Assembly (NCBI RefSeq): GCF_001570565.1
Contig: NZ_BBXE01000014.1
Span: 310,001-374,000, forward strand
DNA length: 64,000 nucleotides
From: Herbidospora yilanensis
GTDB taxonomy: Bacteria > Actinomycetota > Actinomycetes > Streptosporangiales > Streptosporangiaceae
Direction of reading: 5' to 3'
Shown: piece after piece, positions 2,558 through 14,237 of the stretch
Position numbering within the stretch: the first letter of the stretch is position 1
How the letters are laid out: every line of letters begins with the position of its first letter
Translations under genes and position numbers: made by a program
The notes under the pieces: model-generated
What the model was told of the DNA's origin: nothing
The model's input: the letters and a program-made list of their open reading frames with translations, nothing else
Databases searched by the model: none

Positions 2558-2695
2558 TCCGGCGGTAGGTAGAGCACGTCTCCCGCGAGCGGCCGAACGC
2601 AAGAGCCGAGCAATCGACTGGCCAGTAAGTCGAGCGAATGGAACAGACGTTTGCAATGATGGCCGAGACGGATCGGCTCAGGGGAGGTGAAGCAG

Positions 2696-3346
2696 GTGTC
2701 TTACAGCCCGAAGCTAGCGGCGGCGTTGTCAGGTGCCACGCTTCAGCAACTCGCTCACTGGCGTAGGGCCACCAGCAGGGGCGCCGTGCTGGTGCCGGAG
2801 ATCTCCGCCATCAGGCCGGTTCTCTACTCGTTCCGCGATCTGGTCGCTCTGCGAGCCTGTGTAAAACTCCGGAACGACACGTCCCTCCAGAAGATCCGGC
2901 GTGCACTGGACACGCTGCGGGACGATCTAGGGGAACGCGAACATCTGTCGGCGTACCAGTTCGTGGCCGATGAATCGACGATCTACCTAGTAGAACCGGA
3001 GCGGGCCACCGATTTGGTTCGCAACAAGACCAATCTTGTCATTTATCAGATGGTGGACGTCCTAAAGCCGTTCTACCGGGATGGGCGGCACATCCCCGAC
3101 CTCCTCCGTCCGCGTGAACATGTGGCCGTCGATCCGGCGGTCAGAGGCGGAATCCCCGTGATCGAGGGCACTCGCGTCCCCTACGACGATGTCGCTGCCT
3201 TGCTGCGAGACGGTGTGTCGGCCGAGGGGATTTCCGACTACTACCCCAGCGTTTCGGCGACGGCCGCGCGAGACGCAGGAGACTTCGCTGATTACGTAGA
3301 CAGCTACGAACCACTCAAGGAGCAGCGTGAGGCTGCTGCTGGATGA
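2696..3346 (+). CDS. DUF433-family antitoxin with N-terminal MerR-like helix-turn-helix
   Basis: Predicted antitoxin/DNA-binding half of a DUF433-DUF5615 type toxin-antitoxin pair. Residues 1-60 resemble a MerR-like winged helix (SPKLAAALSGATLQQLAHW). The C-terminal third carries the DUF433 signature: VDPAVRGGIPVIEGTRVPYDDVA, here broken into VDPAVRGGIPVIEGTR and the following VPYDDVAALLRDG, then EGISDYYPSVSATAARDAGDFADYV. Start chosen at GTG 2696, 8 nt after GGGGAGG; GTG 2687 is in frame but overlaps that site. It overlaps the next gene by 20 bp. Antitoxins of this kind usually autoregulate; no operator was identified. Confidence 0.82.
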   Translation: MSYSPKLAAALSGATLQQLAHWRRATSRGAVLVPEISAIRPVLYSFRDLVALRACVKLRNDTSLQKIRRALDTLRDDLGEREHLSAYQFVADESTIYLVEPERATDLVRNKTNLVIYQMVDVLKPFYRDGRHIPDLLRPREHVAVDPAVRGGIPVIEGTRVPYDDVAALLRDGVSAEGISDYYPSVSATAARDAGDFADYVDSYEPLKEQREAAAG

Positions 3347-3794
3347 GAATGTCCCCCGTCCTCTGCACCGGGTACTGACCACCTTCATCCAGGGGCACGA
3401 AATTGTGCACCTGCTAGATATGCTCGGCTGGTCGGGAACTCGGGATGAGATGCTCTATCTCCGTGCTGCGGCAGAGGGGTTCCACGTCATACTCACCAAT
3501 GACGGCCGGCAGATGGAGCGTCCGCGTGAGGTGGCCGCCATCGCCGCATCGCGACTCCACCGGATCGAGTACCCCCACAAACATTCCGGTCTCATCGGCA
3601 TGGGCATTGCGATCGCCACGGTAGCCGCAGCCCTCCCCGCCGCCTTGGCGCTACTCGAAACCGTGGACCGCCAGCAGTTGATCACCTTGAGAGCTGTCGA
3701 TCCGACCGCATCGGCTCGTTTACGGGTGGTCGATCCATCGAGTGTTCCGCCGAAGCATTGGCCGGACGCATCGCAGCCCTCAGCGGACTGCTGA
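3327..3794 (+). CDS. PIN-like (DUF5615-type) toxin of the DUF433 pair
   Basis: A 155-aa protein that opens with the typical PIN-like acidic motif RLLLDENVP, followed by HEIVHLLDMLGWSGTRDEML and VILTNDGRQMERP. Those acidic residues (D in LDEN, D/E near residue 35 and the TND motif) are the expected metal ligands of a PIN-type nuclease. The family (DUF5615) is regularly paired with DUF433 antitoxins, which matches the upstream gene. GTG start at 3327 follows GGAG with 5-nt spacing. The Pro/Ser-rich C-terminal 40 residues are not part of the conserved fold. Nuclease activity is inferred from family. Confidence 0.78.
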   Translation: MRLLLDENVPRPLHRVLTTFIQGHEIVHLLDMLGWSGTRDEMLYLRAAAEGFHVILTNDGRQMERPREVAAIAASRLHRIEYPHKHSGLIGMGIAIATVAAALPAALALLETVDRQQLITLRAVDPTASARLRVVDPSSVPPKHWPDASQPSADC

Positions 3795-3930
3795 TGCGTC
3801 GGCAGCGTCGCTGATTCCCGACGAAGCTGGTTAGAGGGAGATTTCGCGCGGCTGATAGGGCTTGGTCAGCGCCTTCAACTCCTCCTTCGACAACTCAAGG
3901 TCCACCGCTGCAACCGCGTCGGGGACGTGG

Positions 3931-3990
3931 CCGTCCTTGGTCGCGCCGATGATGGGCGCGACCATGCCGGGCTGGTGGAGCAGCCAGGCC
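3931..3990. repeat. 60-bp perfect direct repeat, copy 2
   Basis: Identical to 2498-2557, inside the 3' half of the split AKR. Such identity over 60 bp between otherwise diverged AKR 3' ends points to recent duplication or gene conversion. It provides homology for loss or gain of the intervening toxin-antitoxin segment. Confidence 0.9.
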
Positions 3991-4238
3991 AGTGCGAGCG
4001 TCGCGGGGGCGACACCTCTTTCGCCGGCGAGTTCGGCCACCTTCGCCAGGACGTCTCCGTCTCCCGGTCCGCCGTACAGGAAGCGCTGGCGGTCGCCGTC
4101 GCCCTCTTGGCGGGTGGTGTGCTGCTCCTGCCCGGCACGGGCCAGCAGGCCCCTCGCCAGCGGGGACCACGGGATGAGGCCCACGCCCTGGTCGGCGCAG
4201 AGCGGGATCATCTCGCGCTCCTCCTCGCGGTAGAGGAG

Positions 4239-4246
4239 GTTGTAGT
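4239..4246. other. attL core GTTGTAGT of the integrated element
   Basis: Left copy of the 8-bp core shared by both element boundaries. To its left the sequence is AKR coding DNA (next codons LLYREEE); to its right is element DNA leading directly into the integrase gene. Boundary inferred from frame continuity of the split AKR. Confidence 0.85.
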
Positions 4247-4260
4247 TGTGCAACTCATGC

Positions 4261-5814
4261 ATGATGAGACGTATGCAGAAGCTTCCGGTAGCGCTGACCA
4301 GCGGGACGATCCCCGTCGTGTCCTACGCTCGCGCCTCCGCCGACCTTCGGCGGGATGAGCACAGCGTGGAGGACCAGCACCGCATTAACCACGAGACGGC
4401 CAGGCGGAACGGCTGGGTAGTGGTGGCGGAGTTCACCGACAACGACAAGTCGGCCGCCAAGATGGACGTGGTCCGCGATGACTTCGAGCTTCTGTTGAAG
4501 GTCCTCAAGGCCGGCAGGCTCTCGGACGGCACGACGGTTTCCGGCCTGGTCGTCGTTGCCGATGACCGACTAGTGCGGCGTCCCGGTGACTATGAACGGG
4601 TTGTGGACGCCTTCACGCACCGCGACGGACGGGTGTACGCCGACAAGCGGCAGATCAAGGACCTGTACAGCGAAGACGTGGAGAGCATGGGCCTGTTCGG
4701 GGCGGTGATCTCCAAGATGGAGGTCCGCAAGATGCAGCGCCGGATGCGGACGTCTCACCAGTCGCGGGCACAGCGCGGCGTACCGAGTGGCGGGCCTCGA
4801 CCGTTCGGGTGGAAGGACGACCGGCGCACTCTCGACCCGGCTGAGGCCGACCTGGTGCGCAAGGCGGCACGGGACTTCATCGGTGGCCGGTCTGTGTATT
4901 CGATCGTCATGGAGTGGCAGCGCCTCGGCGTGAAGACCAGCCTCGGCAACGACTGGATCTCGCGGTCCCTCAAGGTGGTGCTGACCAACCCGCGTCTGTG
5001 CGGGTGGCGGGAGATCGGCGGGGAACTCGTCCGTGGTCCTGATGGCAACCCGGTGGAAGGCGTCTGGGAGACGATCATCTCTCCGGAGGAGTGGCAGACC
5101 ATTCGCGACATGTTCGACGGGCGAAAGGGGCACTTCGTCCGCCGGAACGGCGAACTTGGACCGGCTCACTCGCCGGACTATCGGGACGCGCGTTATCTGC
5201 TGGTCGGCATTCTGCGGTGCGGGAAGACGGGGCCGGACGGCGTTCTGTGTAACACCAAGCTGCGGGTGACCGGGCAGACGGACGTCAGGCAGCATGCGTA
5301 CGCCTGCCCGTCCAAGTCGGAGGGCGGCTGCGGGGGTGTCTCGCGGCGGGGCGACCTCGTGGACGAGTTCATCTCTGAGGCGCTCCTGGCGAGTCTGGAA
5401 GACAAGGAGATGGCTCGGCGACAGGGAGTCCGGCCTCAGGAGTGGGCAGGCGCGAAAGAACTGAACGACGCGCAAGAGCGTCTGAAGGCGCTCTCTGTTC
5501 AGTGGAATTCCGGCGGCATGTCCAATGACCTGTTCTTCCAATTGGCCGGGGACCTGGAGAAGACGATCGCGCGTCTTCGTGGCGAGTCGAAGAAGCACAC
5601 GGCGACGGTGGAGAGGGATGCGGCCCGGCAGGTCATCGACGTGGAGGACTTCCGTCGACGCTGGTATCTGCCGGAGGAGGAAGGCGGTATGCCGCTGTCC
5701 ACGAAGCGTGCCTATCTGCGCGAGGCGTTTCGAGCGGTGATCGTTTATCCGGGAATCAAGGGGAGCAAGGTGTTCAATCCTGACCTACTGGACCCCATTT
5801 GGTCTGAAGGCTGA
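4261..5814 (+). CDS. int: Large serine recombinase (site-specific integrase)
   Basis: About 517-aa serine integrase that would catalyse attP x attB recombination. The N-terminal resolvase domain begins VVSYARASADLRRDEHSVED, with the catalytic Ser in YARAS and Arg residues at LVVVADDRLVRRPGDY. The recombinase domain follows (RAQRGVPSGGPRPFGWK), then a zinc-ribbon with Cys residues in ILRCGKTG, CNTKL, YACP and GGCGG, and a coiled-coil-like C-terminus. An ATG pair at 4261/4264 is the likely start region (ATG 4273 also possible); an in-frame TTG at 4246 overlaps the att core. The gene starts 15 bp from attL, the usual place for an integrase. Confidence 0.93.
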   Translation: MMRRMQKLPVALTSGTIPVVSYARASADLRRDEHSVEDQHRINHETARRNGWVVVAEFTDNDKSAAKMDVVRDDFELLLKVLKAGRLSDGTTVSGLVVVADDRLVRRPGDYERVVDAFTHRDGRVYADKRQIKDLYSEDVESMGLFGAVISKMEVRKMQRRMRTSHQSRAQRGVPSGGPRPFGWKDDRRTLDPAEADLVRKAARDFIGGRSVYSIVMEWQRLGVKTSLGNDWISRSLKVVLTNPRLCGWREIGGELVRGPDGNPVEGVWETIISPEEWQTIRDMFDGRKGHFVRRNGELGPAHSPDYRDARYLLVGILRCGKTGPDGVLCNTKLRVTGQTDVRQHAYACPSKSEGGCGGVSRRGDLVDEFISEALLASLEDKEMARRQGVRPQEWAGAKELNDAQERLKALSVQWNSGGMSNDLFFQLAGDLEKTIARLRGESKKHTATVERDAARQVIDVEDFRRRWYLPEEEGGMPLSTKRAYLREAFRAVIVYPGIKGSKVFNPDLLDPIWSEG

Positions 5815-6202
5815 ATCACATTCGGGAACTGTCGGTGTGGCCTGGTAGTTGTAGATGGCACGGAGACACGCGAGTGGCTCTCAGGCAACACGAGTCGCAT
5901 GCCAGGGTGGCGCCTGGCGCGGGGTAGCTCCCCAGCGGTTTGTTCGACCGCGAATCGCTGACCTAAGCCAACAAACAAAAATAAAAGATGAGGCTGGGGT
6001 GGGCTCTCGGCCGCCGGGTGGCGCCAGTGGAGAACGTTTCCACGTCAAATAGCCAATACATGATTGCCTCCAAATAACTCTCGATGAAGCGACTCGTCGG
6101 GGCTTGTCGTCAGCGCGGGCACTGCTGCGCGCGGCGACGGCTCCACCTGTGAGCTTGCTTTCTGGCGTGCCTCCACTCCTTCGAGAGTTAGGAGGTCACC
6201 GC
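5815..6202. other. Non-coding region between integrase and Rep operon
   Basis: No convincing gene. Two notable pieces are present: an A-rich patch at 5971-5990 (acaaacaaaaataaaagatg), unusual in this GC-rich DNA, and an imperfect palindrome GTGGAGAACGTTTCCAC at 6027-6043. Given the position before rep they are candidates for a promoter, an operator or part of an origin. No excisionase-like HTH frame was found here. Confidence 0.45.
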
Positions 6203-6379
6203 TTGACTTTGCGCCCTGCAACCTCAGCTCGTGAGTGGGGCAGGAAGAAAGCCGCCGAACGCCCCCGGTGGTCAGATCAGAAGTGGCAGCGAATCGGCTG
6301 CATCCTCGGTGTCGAGATCAGTGGCGACGTTGACGAACCTGCATCCCCGTCTGCCGGCGGGGAGGCGATGGCCTCATGA
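6203..6379 (+). CDS. Small protein encoded directly upstream of the Rep initiator
   Basis: A 58-aa basic protein starting at TTG 6203, seven bases after a perfect AGGAGG. It contains RPRWSDQKWQRIGCILGVEI, a pattern of Trp/Arg residues that I associate with small proteins placed before repSA-type genes in actinobacterial integrative elements. Function is not known to me. Its stop overlaps the Rep start by 4 bp (ATGA), so the two are translationally coupled. The start is well supported by the Shine-Dalgarno site but has no ATG. Confidence 0.65.
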   Translation: MTLRPATSAREWGRKKAAERPRWSDQKWQRIGCILGVEISGDVDEPASPSAGGEAMAS

Positions 6380-7827
6380 CCAGTCCGTTCACTGCCGACA
6401 TGTACGCCGTTGCCGAACGGGCGGCGCTGCCGGACTTTCCGCGCTGGCGGCAGATGGTCAAGGCCACTGGTGGGTGTGCCCAACCGATCCGGCTGCATGG
6501 TGAGCGGTACGTGGCCGACGCGCGTACCGGTGAGATCGTCGAGACGTATCGGACGGCTGACGAGCCCACCGGCTACCTGCTGACCGCGTGTGGGAACCGG
6601 CGGGCCTCCCGGTGTCCGGCCTGCTCAGAGGTGTACCGGGATGACACCTTCCACCTGATCATCTCCGGGTTGCAGGGAGGCAAGGGCGTACCGGAGGAAG
6701 TCAGCGGGCATCCCCGCGTGTTCGCCACCTTCACCGCTCCGTCCTTCGGGCCGGTGCACTCCCGACGTGATCGGGCGGGCAAGGCTATGTCGTGCCGTCC
6801 TCGGCGCGGCGATCCCCTTTGTGTGCACGGGCGGCCAGAAGGGTGCCGAGTGCGTCACAGCGAGGATGACACTCGGCTGGGGCAGCCCATCTGCCCGGAC
6901 TGCTTCGACTACTCGGGCGCGGTCCTGTGGAACGCCCATGCCGGGGAACTGTGGCGGTGTTTCACGCGGGACGTGCTGACCACGCTTGCGCATCAGCGCG
7001 GAGTTTCCCGAGCCGAACTGCGGCGGAACCTACGGGTGTCCTACGCCAAGGTTGCCGAATACCAGACGCGCGGCCTGGTGCACTTCCATGCCGTGATCCG
7101 GGTCGACGGCCCGGATGGTCCCGGTGATCCTCCACCGACCTGGGCGACCGTTCCACTGCTGGATGAGGCGATCAGGCGAACTGCCGAACGGGTGAAGGTG
7201 ACCGCCTCGACAGGAGTACGGGGAGACGAGGGGCGTCGTGTCGTCCTCCGCTGGGGTCGGCAACTCGACGTGCAGCCTGTCTACCTCGGTGCGGAGCTGG
7301 GCGGCATGACAGACGGTCGGGTGGCGGCCTACATCGCCAAGTACGCGACCAAAGGCGCAGAGTCTGCCGGGACCGTCGATCGCCGGGTGAGGCGGCCCGA
7401 ACAGATCGAGAACCTCAAGGTGAGTGAGCACGCTCGGAGGATGATCTACACCTGCTGGGCGCTATCGATGATGCCGGGTTTCGAGCACCTGCAACTCAAA
7501 CAGTGGGCGCACATGCTCGGCTTCCGGGGCCACTTCTCGACCAAGTCACGCCAGTACTCGACGACCCTGGGTGCTCTTCGCCAGGTCCGCGCCGACTACC
7601 GGGCGTCGATGGCTCGGGCGTCCTTGGGGCTGGTGGATGACGACCGGGAGACGGTGACCATGTCTCAGTGGCGGTACGCGGGAAGCGGTCACGGCAAGGG
7701 CGAACACTTCTGGGCTGAGATCGCTCGGCAACAGGTGTCGACGGCTCGACGCATCAAGCGAGAGAACGAACGGCGGGAGTGGCGGGCCGGCGAAGCCCCC
7801 TATCCTGGCCAAACTTCTTCCCACTGA
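6376..7827 (+). CDS. RepSA-like rolling-circle replication initiator
   Basis: A 483-aa replication initiator of the pSAM2 RepSA type, expected to nick one strand of the excised circle and start rolling-circle replication. Visible motifs are a Cys-rich segment ACGNRRASRCPACSEVYRD (putative zinc site), a second Cys cluster (CVHGRPEGCRVRH and PICPDC), the HUH-like metal motif GLVHFHAVIRVDG, and a catalytic Tyr motif AAYIAKYATKGAES. The C-terminus is basic. Family and motif order agree with other AICE initiators. It overlaps the upstream small gene by 4 bp. Confidence 0.9.
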   Translation: MTSPFTADMYAVAERAALPDFPRWRQMVKATGGCAQPIRLHGERYVADARTGEIVETYRTADEPTGYLLTACGNRRASRCPACSEVYRDDTFHLIISGLQGGKGVPEEVSGHPRVFATFTAPSFGPVHSRRDRAGKAMSCRPRRGDPLCVHGRPEGCRVRHSEDDTRLGQPICPDCFDYSGAVLWNAHAGELWRCFTRDVLTTLAHQRGVSRAELRRNLRVSYAKVAEYQTRGLVHFHAVIRVDGPDGPGDPPPTWATVPLLDEAIRRTAERVKVTASTGVRGDEGRRVVLRWGRQLDVQPVYLGAELGGMTDGRVAAYIAKYATKGAESAGTVDRRVRRPEQIENLKVSEHARRMIYTCWALSMMPGFEHLQLKQWAHMLGFRGHFSTKSRQYSTTLGALRQVRADYRASMARASLGLVDDDRETVTMSQWRYAGSGHGKGEHFWAEIARQQVSTARRIKRENERREWRAGEAPYPGQTSSH

Positions 7828-7853
7828 CACATGGATCACCGGTAAAATACCCC

Positions 7854-8102
7854 ATGCGCTTTCAAATTGAAGTCGACTACGACATCGTTCTAATGTTTGA
7901 GCCGACCGCGCGGGAGTATTCACTCCGCGCTGGCGAGATAATCACGGTTGAATGGTTCGACGGGACCGAACAAGGTATGGTTCGACTGACTGAAGGAGTT
8001 ATAGAAGTCAGCGCCACGGTGGGCGGATATACGCGCGCTTGGGATTCGCAAGGAGTCGAAATATACGTCGGGCCGGAGTCGGGAGATGAGTCCCGTATTT
8101 AG
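7854..8102 (+). CDS. Small hypothetical protein of the element
   Basis: An 82-aa acidic protein (MRFQIEVDYDIVLMFE...) with alternating beta-strand-like segments and no recognisable domain. The ATG at 7854 lacks a strong ribosome-binding site. Base composition is lower in GC than rep, suggesting separate origin. It lies 26 bp after rep on the same strand and is convergent with the XRE-TPR regulator. I do not recognise the family. Confidence 0.5.
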   Translation: MRFQIEVDYDIVLMFEPTAREYSLRAGEIITVEWFDGTEQGMVRLTEGVIEVSATVGGYTRAWDSQGVEIYVGPESGDESRI

Positions 8103-8127
8103 CTGACAGAGCCGGCGCACCACGGTC

Positions 8128-9333
8128 CTACCGGGAGACAGACCACGCTCGGGCGCGGCAGATCTCCTCCGACAGATCGAGCAGGCTCCCTGATGGCCCC
8201 CCTTGAGGACTTGCCGAGAAGACGAGCCTGACGGCCGTCTTCAACATCACCTCACTGCGAGCCGACACCACTTCGCGGGTGAACTCGGTGACGGTCGCGG
8301 CGATCGGTTCGGCATCCGACCACGCCTTGGCCATCGCCAGCGCCAGGAAGAGATGAATCAGGTCGTTGTACGCCGCGCGGCCCCATTCCTCGCCGTGCGC
8401 TGTGATGCTCGTGCCATTCGCCGGGGCGTAGGGGTCGCGGCGTATCCGGCCGTGCGCGGCGTCGTTGAGGTGGGGCATCGCCGCCGAGTATTCGCCCAAC
8501 TCCAGATAGAGCAGGCCTCTTTGCACGGCCATTTCTGAGGAGTCCAGCCACCACGTCCAGTGAGGATCACGCGGATGCACCGAGTCGAGCAACGCGCTCT
8601 CGGCCTGGGCGAGAGTTTCGAGTGATCGGCGTCGGTCTCCCGATTGGGCCAGCGCGCGTGCTGCGCGGATCTTGAAGAGAGCTCCCAGTCGGGGGGCGAC
8701 AACTCCGGGATCCATGACGCTCTCGGCGATGCGCAAGGCTTCGCGAGAGTGTCGCTGATGCAGGTCGACCAGGGCCAGATGGGAGAGCGAGAAGAGTTCC
8801 ATCGCCCGGTCACCCGCGAGCCTGGACATGAACATCGCCTCGTGGGTGACGGCGCGTGACTCGTCCAGCCGGTCTCCGTCGTACAGGCACCATGCGGCGA
8901 TCTCGCCGGTCTCGCCTGCGGCGGCCTGGAGGTCGGTCTCGTTGGCGTTGTGTGCCCCGGTCGCGATCGTGCGCCTGGCGGAACGGAACGCCTGAAGCGC
9001 GACGTCCGCGATTCCGGTTCCTCCGTACCGTGAGTCGAGGGCGATCAGGTGGAGGTTCGTGTCTCGGATCTCTGAGACGTAGTCGGCCGTTCGCGGCGGC
9101 TCTGCGGGCACTTGGTAATGCGGTGCAGCGGAGAGCGATCGGGAGAAGAGTGAGAGTAACTCGCCGTTGGCGGAAAGCGCCTTGTCGAGAGCTGCGGCTA
9201 CTTGAGCGCTGGGAGCGCGCCGGCCGGTCTCCAAATCAGAAATGTGGCTCTTGGACACGGTGGCGCGGCGGGCGAGTTCGCGAGTTGTGAAATCACCACG
9301 CAGACGGCGTAATGCTGCGCCGAATGTCTCCAA
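8128..9333 (-). CDS. XRE-family regulator with C-terminal TPR-like helices
   Basis: Residues 1-60 form an HTH_3 domain (FGAALRRLRGDFTTRELARR followed by VSKSHISDLETGRRAPSAQ). The rest is a long alpha-helical repeat region with Ala/Leu-rich helix pairs typical of actinobacterial XRE-TPR regulators, which may sense a peptide or protein partner. TTG at 9333 is chosen because GAGGAG sits six bases upstream; ATG 9387 is in frame but lies inside the inverted-repeat operator and has no ribosome-binding site. Divergent from two small genes, it is the obvious master regulator of the element. Confidence 0.85.
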   Translation of the reverse strand: METFGAALRRLRGDFTTRELARRATVSKSHISDLETGRRAPSAQVAAALDKALSANGELLSLFSRSLSAAPHYQVPAEPPRTADYVSEIRDTNLHLIALDSRYGGTGIADVALQAFRSARRTIATGAHNANETDLQAAAGETGEIAAWCLYDGDRLDESRAVTHEAMFMSRLAGDRAMELFSLSHLALVDLHQRHSREALRIAESVMDPGVVAPRLGALFKIRAARALAQSGDRRRSLETLAQAESALLDSVHPRDPHWTWWLDSSEMAVQRGLLYLELGEYSAAMPHLNDAAHGRIRRDPYAPANGTSITAHGEEWGRAAYNDLIHLFLALAMAKAWSDAEPIAATVTEFTREVVSARSEVMLKTAVRLVFSASPQGGPSGSLLDLSEEICRARAWSVSR

Positions 9334-9364
9334 GATCGGCTCCTCGATCAGTGGTGGATTTGTT

Positions 9365-9394
9365 TGTCCGCAGTGTGCGGACGCCATGCGGACA
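9365..9394. promoter_or_regulatory. Three-half-site operator in the XRE-TPR promoter
   Basis: The sequence holds TGTCCGCA (9365-9372), then TGCGGACG (9376-9383) and TGCGGACA (9387-9394). The outer copies form a perfect 8-bp inverted repeat and the middle copy is a direct repeat of the third, each separated by 3 bp. It sits ~30 bp upstream of the TTG start of the regulator in the divergent promoter region, so autoregulation and control of the divergent genes is likely. Confidence 0.7.
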
Positions 9395-9556
9395 AGAACC
9401 CGTGGTCATCCAACTACGAGTCTAGACATGCTTGCCGCAGATCCCGAGGAAGTGGCAGACGATCATTGCCGCCGCAATTGCCGGAAAAGTCGGACCCGCC
9501 CAAGTGCGAGCACACAAGGGCGGATCCTTGATCGCACATCTGGAGGTGCGCGACCC

Positions 9557-9859
9557 GTGCAACATGCTAGAGGCGTACGGTACCGGGACATAAACGGTCC
9601 ACCGGGAGTAGCGACAGATCTCGGGGAACCCGACTGGGATGCGGCGATGAGGGCGACGGCTGCGGGTCTCGACCTCGTCGAACCGGCCTGGGTGGTCTTC
9701 TATGGCGTCGCCAGTCGCCGGTTCTGGGCGTTCGCGGCCTGGCCCGCCGCATGCCCTGTGATCGTCGACTCGGTCAACGTCGATGATCTCCGTAACCGGA
9801 TGCGCGCGGCCGAAATGGCTGGAGGCAACCTCACGGGCGGCTCGGTGGTGGGTCGGTGA
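9557..9859 (+). CDS. Small hypothetical protein divergent from the XRE-TPR regulator
   Basis: A 100-aa protein starting at GTG 9557, ten bases after GGAGG. It has an aromatic-rich centre (LVEPAWVVFYGVASRRFWAF, then AWPAACP) and no domain I can name. It overlaps the next gene by 4 bp (GTGA), so the two form a translationally coupled pair. Small two-gene units divergent from XRE-TPR regulators recur in actinomycetes; their job is unknown to me. Confidence 0.65.
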   Translation: MQHARGVRYRDINGPPGVATDLGEPDWDAAMRATAAGLDLVEPAWVVFYGVASRRFWAFAAWPAACPVIVDSVNVDDLRNRMRAAEMAGGNLTGGSVVGR

Positions 9860-10197
9860 ACGCCCACGCTGCTGGAGAGCGCCTCGTTGCTGAGCTGGCC
9901 AGACGTAACGTGCCCAGTTACCTCGTCGAACTCAACGGCGGCTTGGTGGCGGTGTGCATCTGGCATGGCCTGATCGCGCGTTCCGATGGGGCGATGATCT
10001 GGTGGCAGGCTCCTCGCCTCAGCCGTCGAGGTCACCTGCTTGCCACTTATGCGCACAGTGTCACTGGGGCCGCTCATCGTCTCAGCGACCAGTACGTCAA
10101 GGCACGTGAGAGCCACACCGTTCCGCCGATCTATGGGGACTCCCGTGCGTTCTGGGGGCCGCTGAACACGGCTACCGATCAGGCCAACACCGGATGA
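9856..10197 (+). CDS. Small hypothetical protein, partner of the preceding gene
   Basis: A 113-aa protein with a compact alpha/beta look: VAELARRNVPSYLVELNGG, GLIARSDGAMIWWQAP, then a helical C-terminal part LATYAHSVTGAAHRLSDQYV. GTG start overlaps the stop of the upstream gene. No catalytic motif or signal peptide is visible. Its conserved-looking composition and codon use support a real gene; function unrecognised. Confidence 0.65.
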   Translation: MNAHAAGERLVAELARRNVPSYLVELNGGLVAVCIWHGLIARSDGAMIWWQAPRLSRRGHLLATYAHSVTGAAHRLSDQYVKARESHTVPPIYGDSRAFWGPLNTATDQANTG

Positions 10198-10622
10198 TCG
10201 TCGGCGATCGTCTCGGTTATCCCGATGGCAAGTGGACCCGTACCGCAGGGAGCGCAAGCGACTGAGGAACGGAAGCCGCGCGGCAGCCAATCTCCAATGA
10301 CTCCTCCGGATCGGCACGGCTCCTCGTGGTGCGGACGGGGAGCGCCGGGTGATAGCCCCCGCTTGCTCGGTCCGATTCGGAGGTTCAGAGGGTGGGTCGC
10401 ATTGAGCACTGGTCCGGTAAGTGTTGTCCGGCCCACCCTCGACTCAGAGCGGCAGTGCTCCGGGGTGCGGCGGGTGCGCGCGGTGTGGCGGCCGGCCGGT
10501 GCGGCGAAGCGGCCCAGAGCTGCCGCCGCCGGGACCGGCCCCCAGGCCGCAGCCCGGCGAGTGGCAGAGCGGAGGGCCGCCTTACGGCGGCGCGGAGCAC
10601 TGCCGCTACCCGGGCTGAATCG
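10198..10622. other. Non-coding, GC-rich segment of the element
   Basis: No frame here has a convincing start, ribosome-binding site and protein-like composition. The segment 10440-10620 is a very GC-rich low-complexity tract with short local hairpins such as GCCGCC-TTAC-GGCGGC. It separates the small-gene pair from the convergent AKR cargo gene, so it may act as a termination region. Confidence 0.4.
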
Positions 10623-11702
<1,080 letters not shown>

Positions 11703-11775
11703 TCATCACTCAGTTGGGTGCCCGGCCGAGGGGTAGTTTGGATCCTATTCGTTCATCTCTATTCTCGCATTGCCA

Positions 11776-13155
11776 CTAAAAGCCCATCTTGCTCTCGATG
11801 TATTTCTGAAGCAGGCTCAAGGAAGCGTCGCCGATCTTATCGCCGAACTTGAAGAGAAAACCCTTTAGCTTCTGTGCTGCGGTCAAGCGATCTTCTTCTT
11901 CTGCGTCTGAATCTTCGATCTCATGAACGGCGGATTCTAGAAGCATGGAATCTGCTTCTGCGTGTTTGGCAACCAACTCCAAGAGCTTGACGGCATCGGG
12001 CGAGAGATTCGCATTGCCGCTGACCTCTTGGGCGACGATGCCTTGTACGGAATTGAAGAATTGCTGATTAACTACAATGCTGGGCCCTGTAGCAGGCTGA
12101 GTGGTCTTGGAAAGCTCGAGTGCTAGAGGGGCGGTGAATCGAGATGGCAGCGGAATTAATTGATCGACAATATTCGAGTCTGGGGCGCCTGAACCGCACT
12201 CTTCAAGTTCAGACTCCAGCCGATGTCGTATGGCAAGGACTCTCGTTTCTCGTTCATGGCGTAGGTCTCTGTTAAGTCGCCTAGCTTCTCGAGCGTAGCG
12301 CGCTATGATTCCTGCGACTGTTGCGCGTTGTACATTATTCTCTTCGAGAAGCTGCTCAGCCTTTTCTGGGTTCTCTATACACATCTCAAGAAAGTCCGAG
12401 AAATTTCGAAGTTCTTCGGCTAGGCCTTCTCCTCGAAGAGAGTCGTCTCCATAGAACTCGTGAACTTCTCCGTTGCTGGTCGTATATCCGCCAAGGCGAA
12501 CTCGCTGTCCCTTTATTTGGGCAAGCCAGTTGCGGAAGAGTTCGAGTAGCTTGCTCGCTTCTCCTGCCCATAGTCTTCCTGACGGAATATAGATACGGAA
12601 CAGCAGTCGTTTATCGTGTTGTTCAACAAACTTGGCTACTAGAACGGAAAGCTCAGCATTTGTTTTGTATGGAACTATGGTGAGGTCATACTCGCGGAGC
12701 AGGGACCGAACCTTTTCTCTCACATCGGCCGATACGGCGCGGAGGACTTGTTCATCCTGCCAGAGTATTATTCTCTCCTCCTCCCCAAAGATGTTTGTTA
12801 TATTGTGTGGAACTCCCAATCTTGTCGTGATGTTAGACTCGTCCGAGAATACCCCGTCATGAATGTAGATGGCATGGCTTATGGTTTGCAGAGATCTTAG
12901 TATTTTCAGTGCAGGGATGGAGTAGTTCTCGCGCACGAGTAGTTCGCATGTGGATGCCGTGAGCTTTACGAGCGCGCCAAGGAGTCCGGGCTTTGTGAGC
13001 TGCTCATCAATTGTTAGCCAGTTTTCTGGGCTTGACTCGAGCATCTTCTTTACGTACTTAACTCCGGTACTTTTTAGCTTCCCGGTCGCAGATTCTCGGT
13101 CAACATTTCCAATAAATATGAAAAATGGATCGACGTCGGAATGTTCAGTAGTCAT
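11776..13155 (-). CDS. AT-rich 459-aa orphan protein of unknown function
   Basis: Well-formed gene (AAGGAG seven bases before ATG 13155) with markedly lower GC and A/T-ending codons compared with all neighbours, so recently acquired. There is no signal peptide or membrane segment. An alpha/beta N-terminal half contains RLLFRIYIPSGRLWAGEASK and an Arg-rich helix region (RYAREARRLNRDLRHERETR) likely to form a coiled coil. The C-terminal part is acidic and helical (VHEIEDSDAEEEDRLTAAQK) and ends LSLLQKYIESKMGF. I do not recognise the family. Its place as a cargo gene at the element's end is where defence or fitness genes often sit, which is only suggestive. Confidence 0.85.
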   Translation of the reverse strand: MTTEHSDVDPFFIFIGNVDRESATGKLKSTGVKYVKKMLESSPENWLTIDEQLTKPGLLGALVKLTASTCELLVRENYSIPALKILRSLQTISHAIYIHDGVFSDESNITTRLGVPHNITNIFGEEERIILWQDEQVLRAVSADVREKVRSLLREYDLTIVPYKTNAELSVLVAKFVEQHDKRLLFRIYIPSGRLWAGEASKLLELFRNWLAQIKGQRVRLGGYTTSNGEVHEFYGDDSLRGEGLAEELRNFSDFLEMCIENPEKAEQLLEENNVQRATVAGIIARYAREARRLNRDLRHERETRVLAIRHRLESELEECGSGAPDSNIVDQLIPLPSRFTAPLALELSKTTQPATGPSIVVNQQFFNSVQGIVAQEVSGNANLSPDAVKLLELVAKHAEADSMLLESAVHEIEDSDAEEEDRLTAAQKLKGFLFKFGDKIGDASLSLLQKYIESKMGF

Positions 13156-13240
13156 TCAAGTGCTCCTTTATTTGAGTGAATTACGGTACCGGGAAGTGGT
13201 GAATGGGAGTTCGTTCTCATCACTCGACGGGTCGGCCTGG

Positions 13241-13375
13241 ATGGGAATTATAAGGGATAAGGGTCGGCCGTGCTCTAGATGTGGACATATCGCACACTTT
13301 CGCGAATATAAAGATGCATATGAGTGCTTTAGTCTTCAGATTGACTTTGGTCCCGTTTGTCAAGGTGCTGTTTAG
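13241..13375 (+). CDS. Possible 44-aa four-cysteine micro-protein
   Basis: Short frame starting ATG 13241 with a CxxC pair and two further Cys (PCSRCGHIAHFREYKDAYEC, then GPVCQ), a zinc-ribbon-like spacing. No good ribosome-binding site is seen. Codon use resembles the adjacent AT-rich orphan, from which it is divergently oriented. It may instead be the tail of a degraded gene. Confidence 0.3.
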   Translation: MGIIRDKGRPCSRCGHIAHFREYKDAYECFSLQIDFGPVCQGAV

Positions 13376-13670
13376 TATGGCTCGCTGATAGTCCGGTCCA
13401 GGACCGGCTATAACTGCGTAGCCCCCACGGGTCGAAGCTCCAGGAGCCTGTCTTTGACCGCCCTGCGGCACGCCGTAGGCGGGCCGCCTTGACCTTGTAG
13501 AGAAACTCGTCGCCGATCGGGCTTGCCCGAAGATCTTTAGGCTTGCGAACCTGGCCTCAGGCGGTGTGGCTGGGAGCATTGCAGCAGCTCAACCGGCCTT
13601 CGTCGTCTCGTCGAGGCGATCAGGGCGATGCTAAGGTGACGTTCATCTTCCCGCGCGAGATGAAATACTT
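13376..13670. other. Right-end non-coding region of the element
   Basis: No gene. It contains the perfect palindrome CCGGTCC-A-GGACCGG at 13393-13407 and a GC-rich stretch toward attR. The final bases read into the 5' half of the AKR and supply 17 foreign codons before a stop at 13620. By analogy with other integrases, recombinase-binding sequence should lie within about 50 bp of attR. Confidence 0.45.
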
Positions 13671-13678
13671 GTTGTAGT
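13671..13678. other. attR core GTTGTAGT of the integrated element
   Basis: Right copy of the 8-bp core. To its right is AKR coding sequence for SMQNHYN read on the minus strand; to its left is element DNA. Together with 4239-4246 it defines the insertion. Confidence 0.85.
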
Positions 13679-14237
13679 GGTTCTGCATCGAGACGAACTT
13701 CGTCCAGCCGTTGACCTCGGCGACGTGCTGGGCCTTGGCGAACTGCCAGGCCCGCATGCTGGAGGCGCCGATGTACCGCGCTTTGCCTGACTTCACCACG
13801 TCGTGCAGCGCTTCCATCGTCTCTTCGATGGGGGTTTCGTCGTCCCAGCGGTGGATCTGGTAGAGGTCGACGAAGTCGGTGCCCAATCGGGTGAGGGAGT
13901 CGTCGACGGCGGCCATGATGTGCTTGCGGGACAGGCCCTTGTCGTTGTGGCCCTGGTGGACGGGGAAGAAGACCTTCGTCGCCAGGACGTAGTCGTCTCG
14001 GCGGTCGAAGAACTTCCTGAGCAGGTTGCCGGTGACGACTTCGGAGGCGCCGGCCGAGTAGACGTCGGCGGTGTCGAAGAAGGTGATGCCTGCTTCGACG
14101 GCCTGGCGGACGAGGGGTTCTGACTGGGGTTCAGGGAGGATCCAGCTCGCGGCCTCACTGGGTTGGCCGTAGCTCATCATGCCGAGGCAGATCCGGCTGA
14201 CCTTGAGTCCTGTTCGTCCCAAACGTACGTATTCCAT
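13671..14237 (-). pseudogene. 5' half of the aldo/keto reductase split by the integrated element
   Basis: The first 189 codons of a plant-type potassium-channel-beta-like AKR. It opens MEYVRLGRTGLKVSRICLGM, with catalytic Asp/Tyr in FFDTADVYSAGASE, Lys in VLATKVFF and His in LYQIHRWDDE, ending KFVSMQNHYN at the core. Beyond the core the frame reads 17 unrelated residues (KYFISRGKMNVTLASP) and stops. All catalytic residues are retained but the cofactor-binding C-terminus is displaced 9.4 kb downstream, so the truncated product should be inactive. Confidence 0.92.

Follow-up and report, generated by a model that had tools for sequence, protein, structure and literature searches.

An element within a split reductase gene

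The window analysed here is a 64-kb stretch of contig C14 in the 7.85-Mb genome of Herbidospora yilanensis (G000), and it carries an aldo/keto reductase (AKR) gene in two parts, separated by genes for a large serine integrase, a RepSA-type replication initiator, a regulator and cargo (Table 1). Copies of the 8-mer GTTGTAGT lie at 4239–4246 and 13671–13678, spaced 9,432 bp from start to start, and joining the flanks yields a 975-bp frame of 324 codons plus stop that encodes an AKR and passes the junction as ...SMQNHYN/LLYREEE.... An earlier sequence-only reading had given both positions and the in-frame AKR, and we recovered the same. In the interrupted gene, the frame of the AKR 5′ part enters the element and stops after 205 codons. 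Because GTTGTAGT is short and recurs in the 64-kb window (three more positions on the plus strand and one on the minus strand), the repeat alone is weak evidence; it is empty sites in relatives that settle the reality of the insertion.

Table 1 Features of the element and of its target gene, in window coordinates
Feature	Position	Strand	Evidence or remark
Target AKR, 3′ part, ending at the TT crossover	3831..4241	-	PF00248 profile 163–288; runs on from the 5′ part once the flanks are joined
attL: left AKR half-site and attP right arm	4205..4276
Crossover TT in attL, inside the 8-mer 4239–4246	4240..4241		Differing flank bases in relatives; attP symmetry centre
Large serine integrase	4246..5814	+	PF00239 8.5e-13; PF07508 1.1e-14; PF13408 just under cut-off; phrog_95 integrase 5.1e-70
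RepSA-type (pSAM2) replication initiator	6376..7827	+	PF20199 1.3e-163; NF041486 535 bits
107-aa ORF	7779..8102	+	No family match in Pfam, PADLOC, NCBIfam or PHROGs
Helix-turn-helix regulator with NsdA-like part	8128..9387	-	PF13560 6.4e-11; NF053720 4.5e-36
Cargo AKR, intact, distinct from target AKR (about 32% identical)	10623..11684	-	PF00248 2.2e-72
459-aa cargo protein, low G+C	11776..13155	-	No family match
attR: attP left arm and right AKR half-site	13637..13708
Crossover TT in attR	13672..13673		Comparison of AKR elements
Target AKR, 5′ part	13672..14237	-	PF00248 profile 1–167

The integrase, for which TTG 4246 and ATG 4261, 4264 and 4273 are start candidates, shows the domain order of a serine integrase, with the Resolvase catalytic domain followed by the Recombinase domain; a phmmer search for solved structural relatives returned none at E 0.001. 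The initiator named in the sequence-only reading is borne out by its PF20199 match, and its NF041486 score lies under the NCBIfam equivalog cut-off of 700. A second RepSA gene, 56% identical to that of the window, lies on another contig of the same genome together with a regulator-like piece (L124:4865-6265, on G000:C16), a locus that also has short DNA matches to the element. At window 2687–3794, genes for a DUF433 protein and a PIN-like protein overlap end to end and adjoin the AKR in a toxin–antitoxin-like arrangement; the pair aligned in genome G001 and not in the other five Herbidospora stretches.

Empty and occupied sites

We compared the locus across seven Herbidospora genomes (G000–G006, the H. 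yilanensis genome included). The AKR runs whole across the junction in four of these (G001, G002, G003 and G005; 88–94% identity, 321–324 residues), which supplies the uninterrupted copies in related strains that had been proposed for a check, and it lies in two pieces in G000, G004 and G006, which carry related inserts at the same point. The flanks are syntenic: in G001, the counterparts of window 2586–4249 and 13671–14237 lie side by side and share 11 bp at the core. The joined AKR protein was also searched in 70 genomes and the best 30 loci were examined, 3 of them split and 27 intact. AKR homologues that did not continue through the junction had been set beforehand as one observation that would overturn the insertion, and none appeared: HYNL and TT stand at the site in 27 of 27 intact loci (TT being part of the search pattern), and 25 of the 27 hold the full 8-mer. 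Integrase domains, joined frame and empty sites therefore support the earlier claim of a serine-integrase insertion with exact restoration of the gene. In both G003 (L122:5257-5450), where the AKR is intact, and G006 (L119:5289-5530), the stretch immediately upstream of the AKR start codon holds short remnants of a related integrase, which an older insertion nearby has perhaps left behind.

A scan of GTDB genomes for the integrase gave 41 named loci, the nearest relatives being those of Herbidospora daliensis (97%) and H. mongoliensis (92%). AKR 3′ sequence adjoins the integrase in nine of the 41, spread over five genera (Herbidospora 2, Actinomadura 4, Streptosporangium 1, Planomonospora 1 and Sphaerisporangium 1). 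One locus outside those labelled as AKR, L045, groups with the AKR users and starts with AGGTTGTAG, where its contig ends.

The crossover dinucleotide

Both junctions are readable in eight AKR elements, including that of the window, while L036 and L037 end before the second. TT is present at both junctions in all eight. The base to its left is unequal between attL and attR in four elements (L035, L039, L047 and L051) and the base to its right in three (L038, L039 and L047). The rebuilt attP is two-fold symmetric about TT, with a summed score of 103 compared with 26–68 at 20 other centres and about 48 expected; attB lacks such a peak (58 at TT and up to 63 at other centres). The differing flank bases and the attP symmetry centred on TT together place the exchange at TT and not across the 8-mer. 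The sequence-only reading had held that the 8-mer resolves the att sites to the base; an identity of 8 bp is insufficient for this, but comparison of the eight elements does narrow the exchange to the TT. These are short att sites with a common central dinucleotide, as is required of a serine integrase. Read backwards, the TT corresponds to bases one and two of the NHYN Asn codon, and a fixed TT with free wobble bases on both sides may have helped the site to persist across genera.

A sister group with another target

Targets were assigned by eye from the sequence upstream of each integrase. By this measure 22 of the 41 loci lie in msrA, and 10 lie elsewhere or are unlabelled. Sites in this last set include a methionine synthase gene (PF08267), an SSF symporter gene (PF00474, below cut-off) and sequence next to a 6-O-methylguanine DNA methyltransferase gene (PF02870); two further pieces had no family match. 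One target gene is presumably that of a chitinase, and the MsrA motifs used here are ones that we take to be those of the protein. In 18 of the 22 msrA loci, the sequence beyond the far end of the element holds an MsrA frame that is complete up to the C terminus (with PF01625 on one); no such frame was found in the available stretch of the other four. At 14 of 16 loci analysed, the msrA 3′ end at one junction is chromosomal and differs from that at the other, which is borne by the element; the remaining two loci had no recognisable motif at attL and were left out. Two distinct 3′ ends and a full frame on the far side indicate that the msrA group regenerates a full-length target, whereas the AKR group breaks its target, the AKR frame entering element sequence and then stopping. 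The attP of the msrA group has its symmetry peak at TG (167 compared with 35–119 at 19 other offsets and 84 expected).

In an integrase tree of 44 rows, 12 of which have no target label (two of these being outgroups) and the rest labels given by eye, AKR versus msrA use amounts to one change, on a branch with support of 72/88 that recurs in 78% of bootstrap trees. Judged from these sequences, integrase targets appear to follow the integrase tree, with AKR users on one side of a single branch of moderate support, and this element family of Streptosporangiaceae, Thermomonosporaceae and Streptomycetaceae appears to have changed its target gene.

Shared genes and variable cargo

We compared 28 elements, 10 in AKR and 18 in msrA, with sizes of 2.4 to 12.2 kb (L036 and L037 being cut by the end of the locus). 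An integrase is present in 28 of 28, RepSA in 21 and the cluster of the regulator in 12; the seven elements lacking RepSA are six Streptomycetaceae loci and the cut L037. Matched to PADLOC, 10 larger cargo ORFs gave four strong hits (PDC-M02B, a reverse transcriptase, a PD-T4-6-like kinase and an endonuclease effector), one marginal hit and five without any, so defence-like genes are frequent in the variable slot. Defence-like cargo lies on the attR side in L050, L062, L069, L049 and the G004 element (L118:11864-14539).

The 459-aa ORF of the window element occupies this variable slot and may itself be a defence-like gene. Searches of Pfam, PADLOC, NCBIfam and PHROGs assigned it no family, and it has no plasmid match; one of 295 other genomes of the class holds a relative (36%), and an AlphaFold model built on a two-row alignment was too poor for use (pLDDT 54, pTM 0.32). 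Its G+C, taken in intervals, is about 0.47–0.54, whereas that of the remaining element is mostly 0.58–0.70. Among the window's own ORFs, PADLOC matched only the helix-turn-helix of the regulator. The cluster of the cargo AKR is confined to the three Herbidospora elements (those of the window, G004 and G006) among the 28; we considered this enzyme as a substitute for the broken AKR and set the idea aside on account of its low identity to the target and its presence in only these three.

Several relatives (for example L034, L038, L039, L046, L051 and L052) carry an array of GGACG at an exact 10-bp spacing downstream of the integrase. Of 42 loci, 14 have at least 4 repeats in a row (0 of 200 shuffles each), nine have 3 and 19 have 2 or fewer; no such array is present in the window element or in either of the other two Herbidospora AKR elements. 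It may represent a protein-binding or clt-like site.

No TraB match in any of the 28 elements

Among the FtsK-type matches listed for the H. yilanensis genome (5 of 6), none lies in the window element and none is a clear TraB; TraB-like proteins are present in G004 and G006. A Tra profile built from five TraB-like Herbidospora proteins matched nothing in any of the 28 elements, that of the window included, at a sensitivity that could miss more distant transfer proteins. When two or three of the five were held out, the profile found all held-out proteins at E below 1e-140 and still matched nothing in the 28 elements, and Pfam detected no FtsK in 17 larger ORFs of the elements. The earlier remark that the element lacks a TraB translocase thus stands, but the lack is not peculiar to it: absence from all 28 related elements marks a widespread condition and not a local loss. 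A search of the window element for a clt-like site found no clustered 8-mers. As no transfer gene was found, the element probably moved with outside help.

An FtsK-like match on contig C40 of the same genome was weighed as a helper TraB and set aside, as the protein has a Ser/Thr protein kinase-like start and two cytosine methyltransferase-like ORFs nearby. This locus (L127; G000:C40:90000-103817), with its kinase-like protein bearing an FtsK-like part, helicase-like ORFs and the two cytosine methyltransferase-like ORFs, looks in sequence like a defence island.

Age of the insertions, life cycle and alternatives

No stops interrupt the AKR halves in any of seven readable 5′ parts or ten 3′ parts; in Streptosporangium sandarakinum most of the 5′ part is lost, and it is left out of the seven. 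Relative to the nearest intact copy, dN/dS is 0.08–0.28 for 5′ parts and 0.10–0.49 for 3′ parts, within the ranges among the 27 intact copies (0.10–0.37 and 0.08–0.79), and for Herbidospora pairs it is 0.12–0.19 between split copies and 0.09–0.25 between intact ones. An AKR tree pairs the window with the empty G005 (support 71) and the occupied G006 with the empty G002 (94); the placement of G004 has support of 31. Fourfold differences overlap between element and chromosomal genes, and a claim of recent transfer based on this divergence test was dropped. Split halves without stops and with ordinary dN/dS suggest insertions that are recent or reversible: they would have occurred recently and more than once, or else be undone from time to time, and these data do not separate the two.

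On this evidence we conclude that the locus very probably holds a compact, AICE-related serine-integrase/RepSA element without Tra, integrated at TT in the AKR gene, with the following life cycle. The serine integrase would have recombined a circular attP with the attB in the chromosomal AKR at the TT identified by comparison, its catalysis being that expected of its family, and on excising the element the enzyme would leave the AKR exactly restored. The circular form would be replicated by RepSA, in a rolling-circle mode if it behaves as pSAM2 does, and passage from cell to cell would probably borrow a translocase from an AICE or plasmid.

The element could instead be a decayed AICE, immobile since the loss of its transfer gene and inherited from an ancestor as a relic in a dead AKR. 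The missing transfer gene, the reduced AKR 5′ part of S. sandarakinum and the decayed RepSA relative elsewhere in the genome are in keeping with this, and Ghinet et al. count Frankia elements lacking tra or rep as remnants or mobilizable (PMC3218068). We nevertheless consider decay unlikely, since Tra is missing from all 28 relatives, most of which have an intact integrase, the split halves remain open with dN/dS like that of intact copies where an old single insertion in a dead gene should give values nearer 1, and the AKR tree twice places occupied beside empty sites. Retention of open AKR halves, together with the four empty Herbidospora sites, would equally follow if the insertion were a reversible switch. 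Under that model, frequent exact excision in a Tra-less lineage keeps the AKR under selection and working in the population, the lineage having passed from TG to TT and from target repair in msrA to target disruption in the AKR. As recent independent insertions explain the same data and one relative has lost its AKR 5′ half, we hold a switch to be unlikely.

Compactness, an integrase, a replication gene, a regulator, variable cargo and the lack of a transfer gene are also what a phage satellite packaged by a helper phage would offer. That origin is improbable: PHROGs gave no structural or packaging family among 10 ORFs, none of three candidate stretches in viral contigs was confirmed, and RepSA is an AICE-type initiator. 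The 8-mer is short enough, and frequent enough in the window, to raise the thought that repeat and split arose by an assembly accident or chance, but the same split recurs across five genera in separate assemblies, and other genomes have empty syntenic sites, which makes this very unlikely indeed. The Tra-less integrated element thus remains our preferred reading, and integrating, replicating elements without a known transfer gene raise the question of how they spread.

Comparison with known systems

The window element shares its initiator family (PF20199) with pSAM2, and differs from it in that pSAM2 has a tyrosine integrase, a tRNA site and a transfer gene. A serine integrase is also found in the Streptomyces phage phiC31; phiC31 and the Samy phage, unlike the window element, are phage genomes, and the integrase studied here is about 25–28% identical to 20 phage rows among the matches listed. 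The serine integrase of Samy uses an attB within a coding sequence that is broken (PMC12924846).

In their survey, Durrant et al. (2022; PMC10083194) describe many integrases common to one conserved coding site and close relatives with different targets; the word reductase is absent from the main text. Among the open-access papers searched, we found no report of an AKR or msrA integration site of this kind. The sister groups described here differ in target, dinucleotide and effect on the target, which makes the evolution of target choice by an integrase directly testable. With its att sites resolved to the base and a target gene widespread in the order, this serine integrase of rare actinomycetes is also a possible integration tool.

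By the criteria for AICEs, the window element has a site-specific integrase and a RepSA initiator, one of the AICE types alongside RepAM and Prim-pol, and lacks a TraB/FtsK-type transfer protein; as a transfer gene is also a criterion in Choufa et al. (PMC9513070), we do not file it as an AICE. Ghinet et al. (PMC3218068) described four elements without tra or rep, which likewise hold AICE-like parts minus one module, although the absence here spans 28 elements with related integrases. AICEs carry tra, which was found in neither the window element nor its 27 relatives, and the target gene is another one. The closest parallel is Faln2929 of Frankia alni, a serine-integrase AICE inserted so as to disrupt a gene for a putative endonuclease (Ghinet et al. 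2011, PMC3218068): with it and other serine-integrase AICEs, the window element shares a serine integrase, a RepSA-type initiator and a disrupted protein-coding target.
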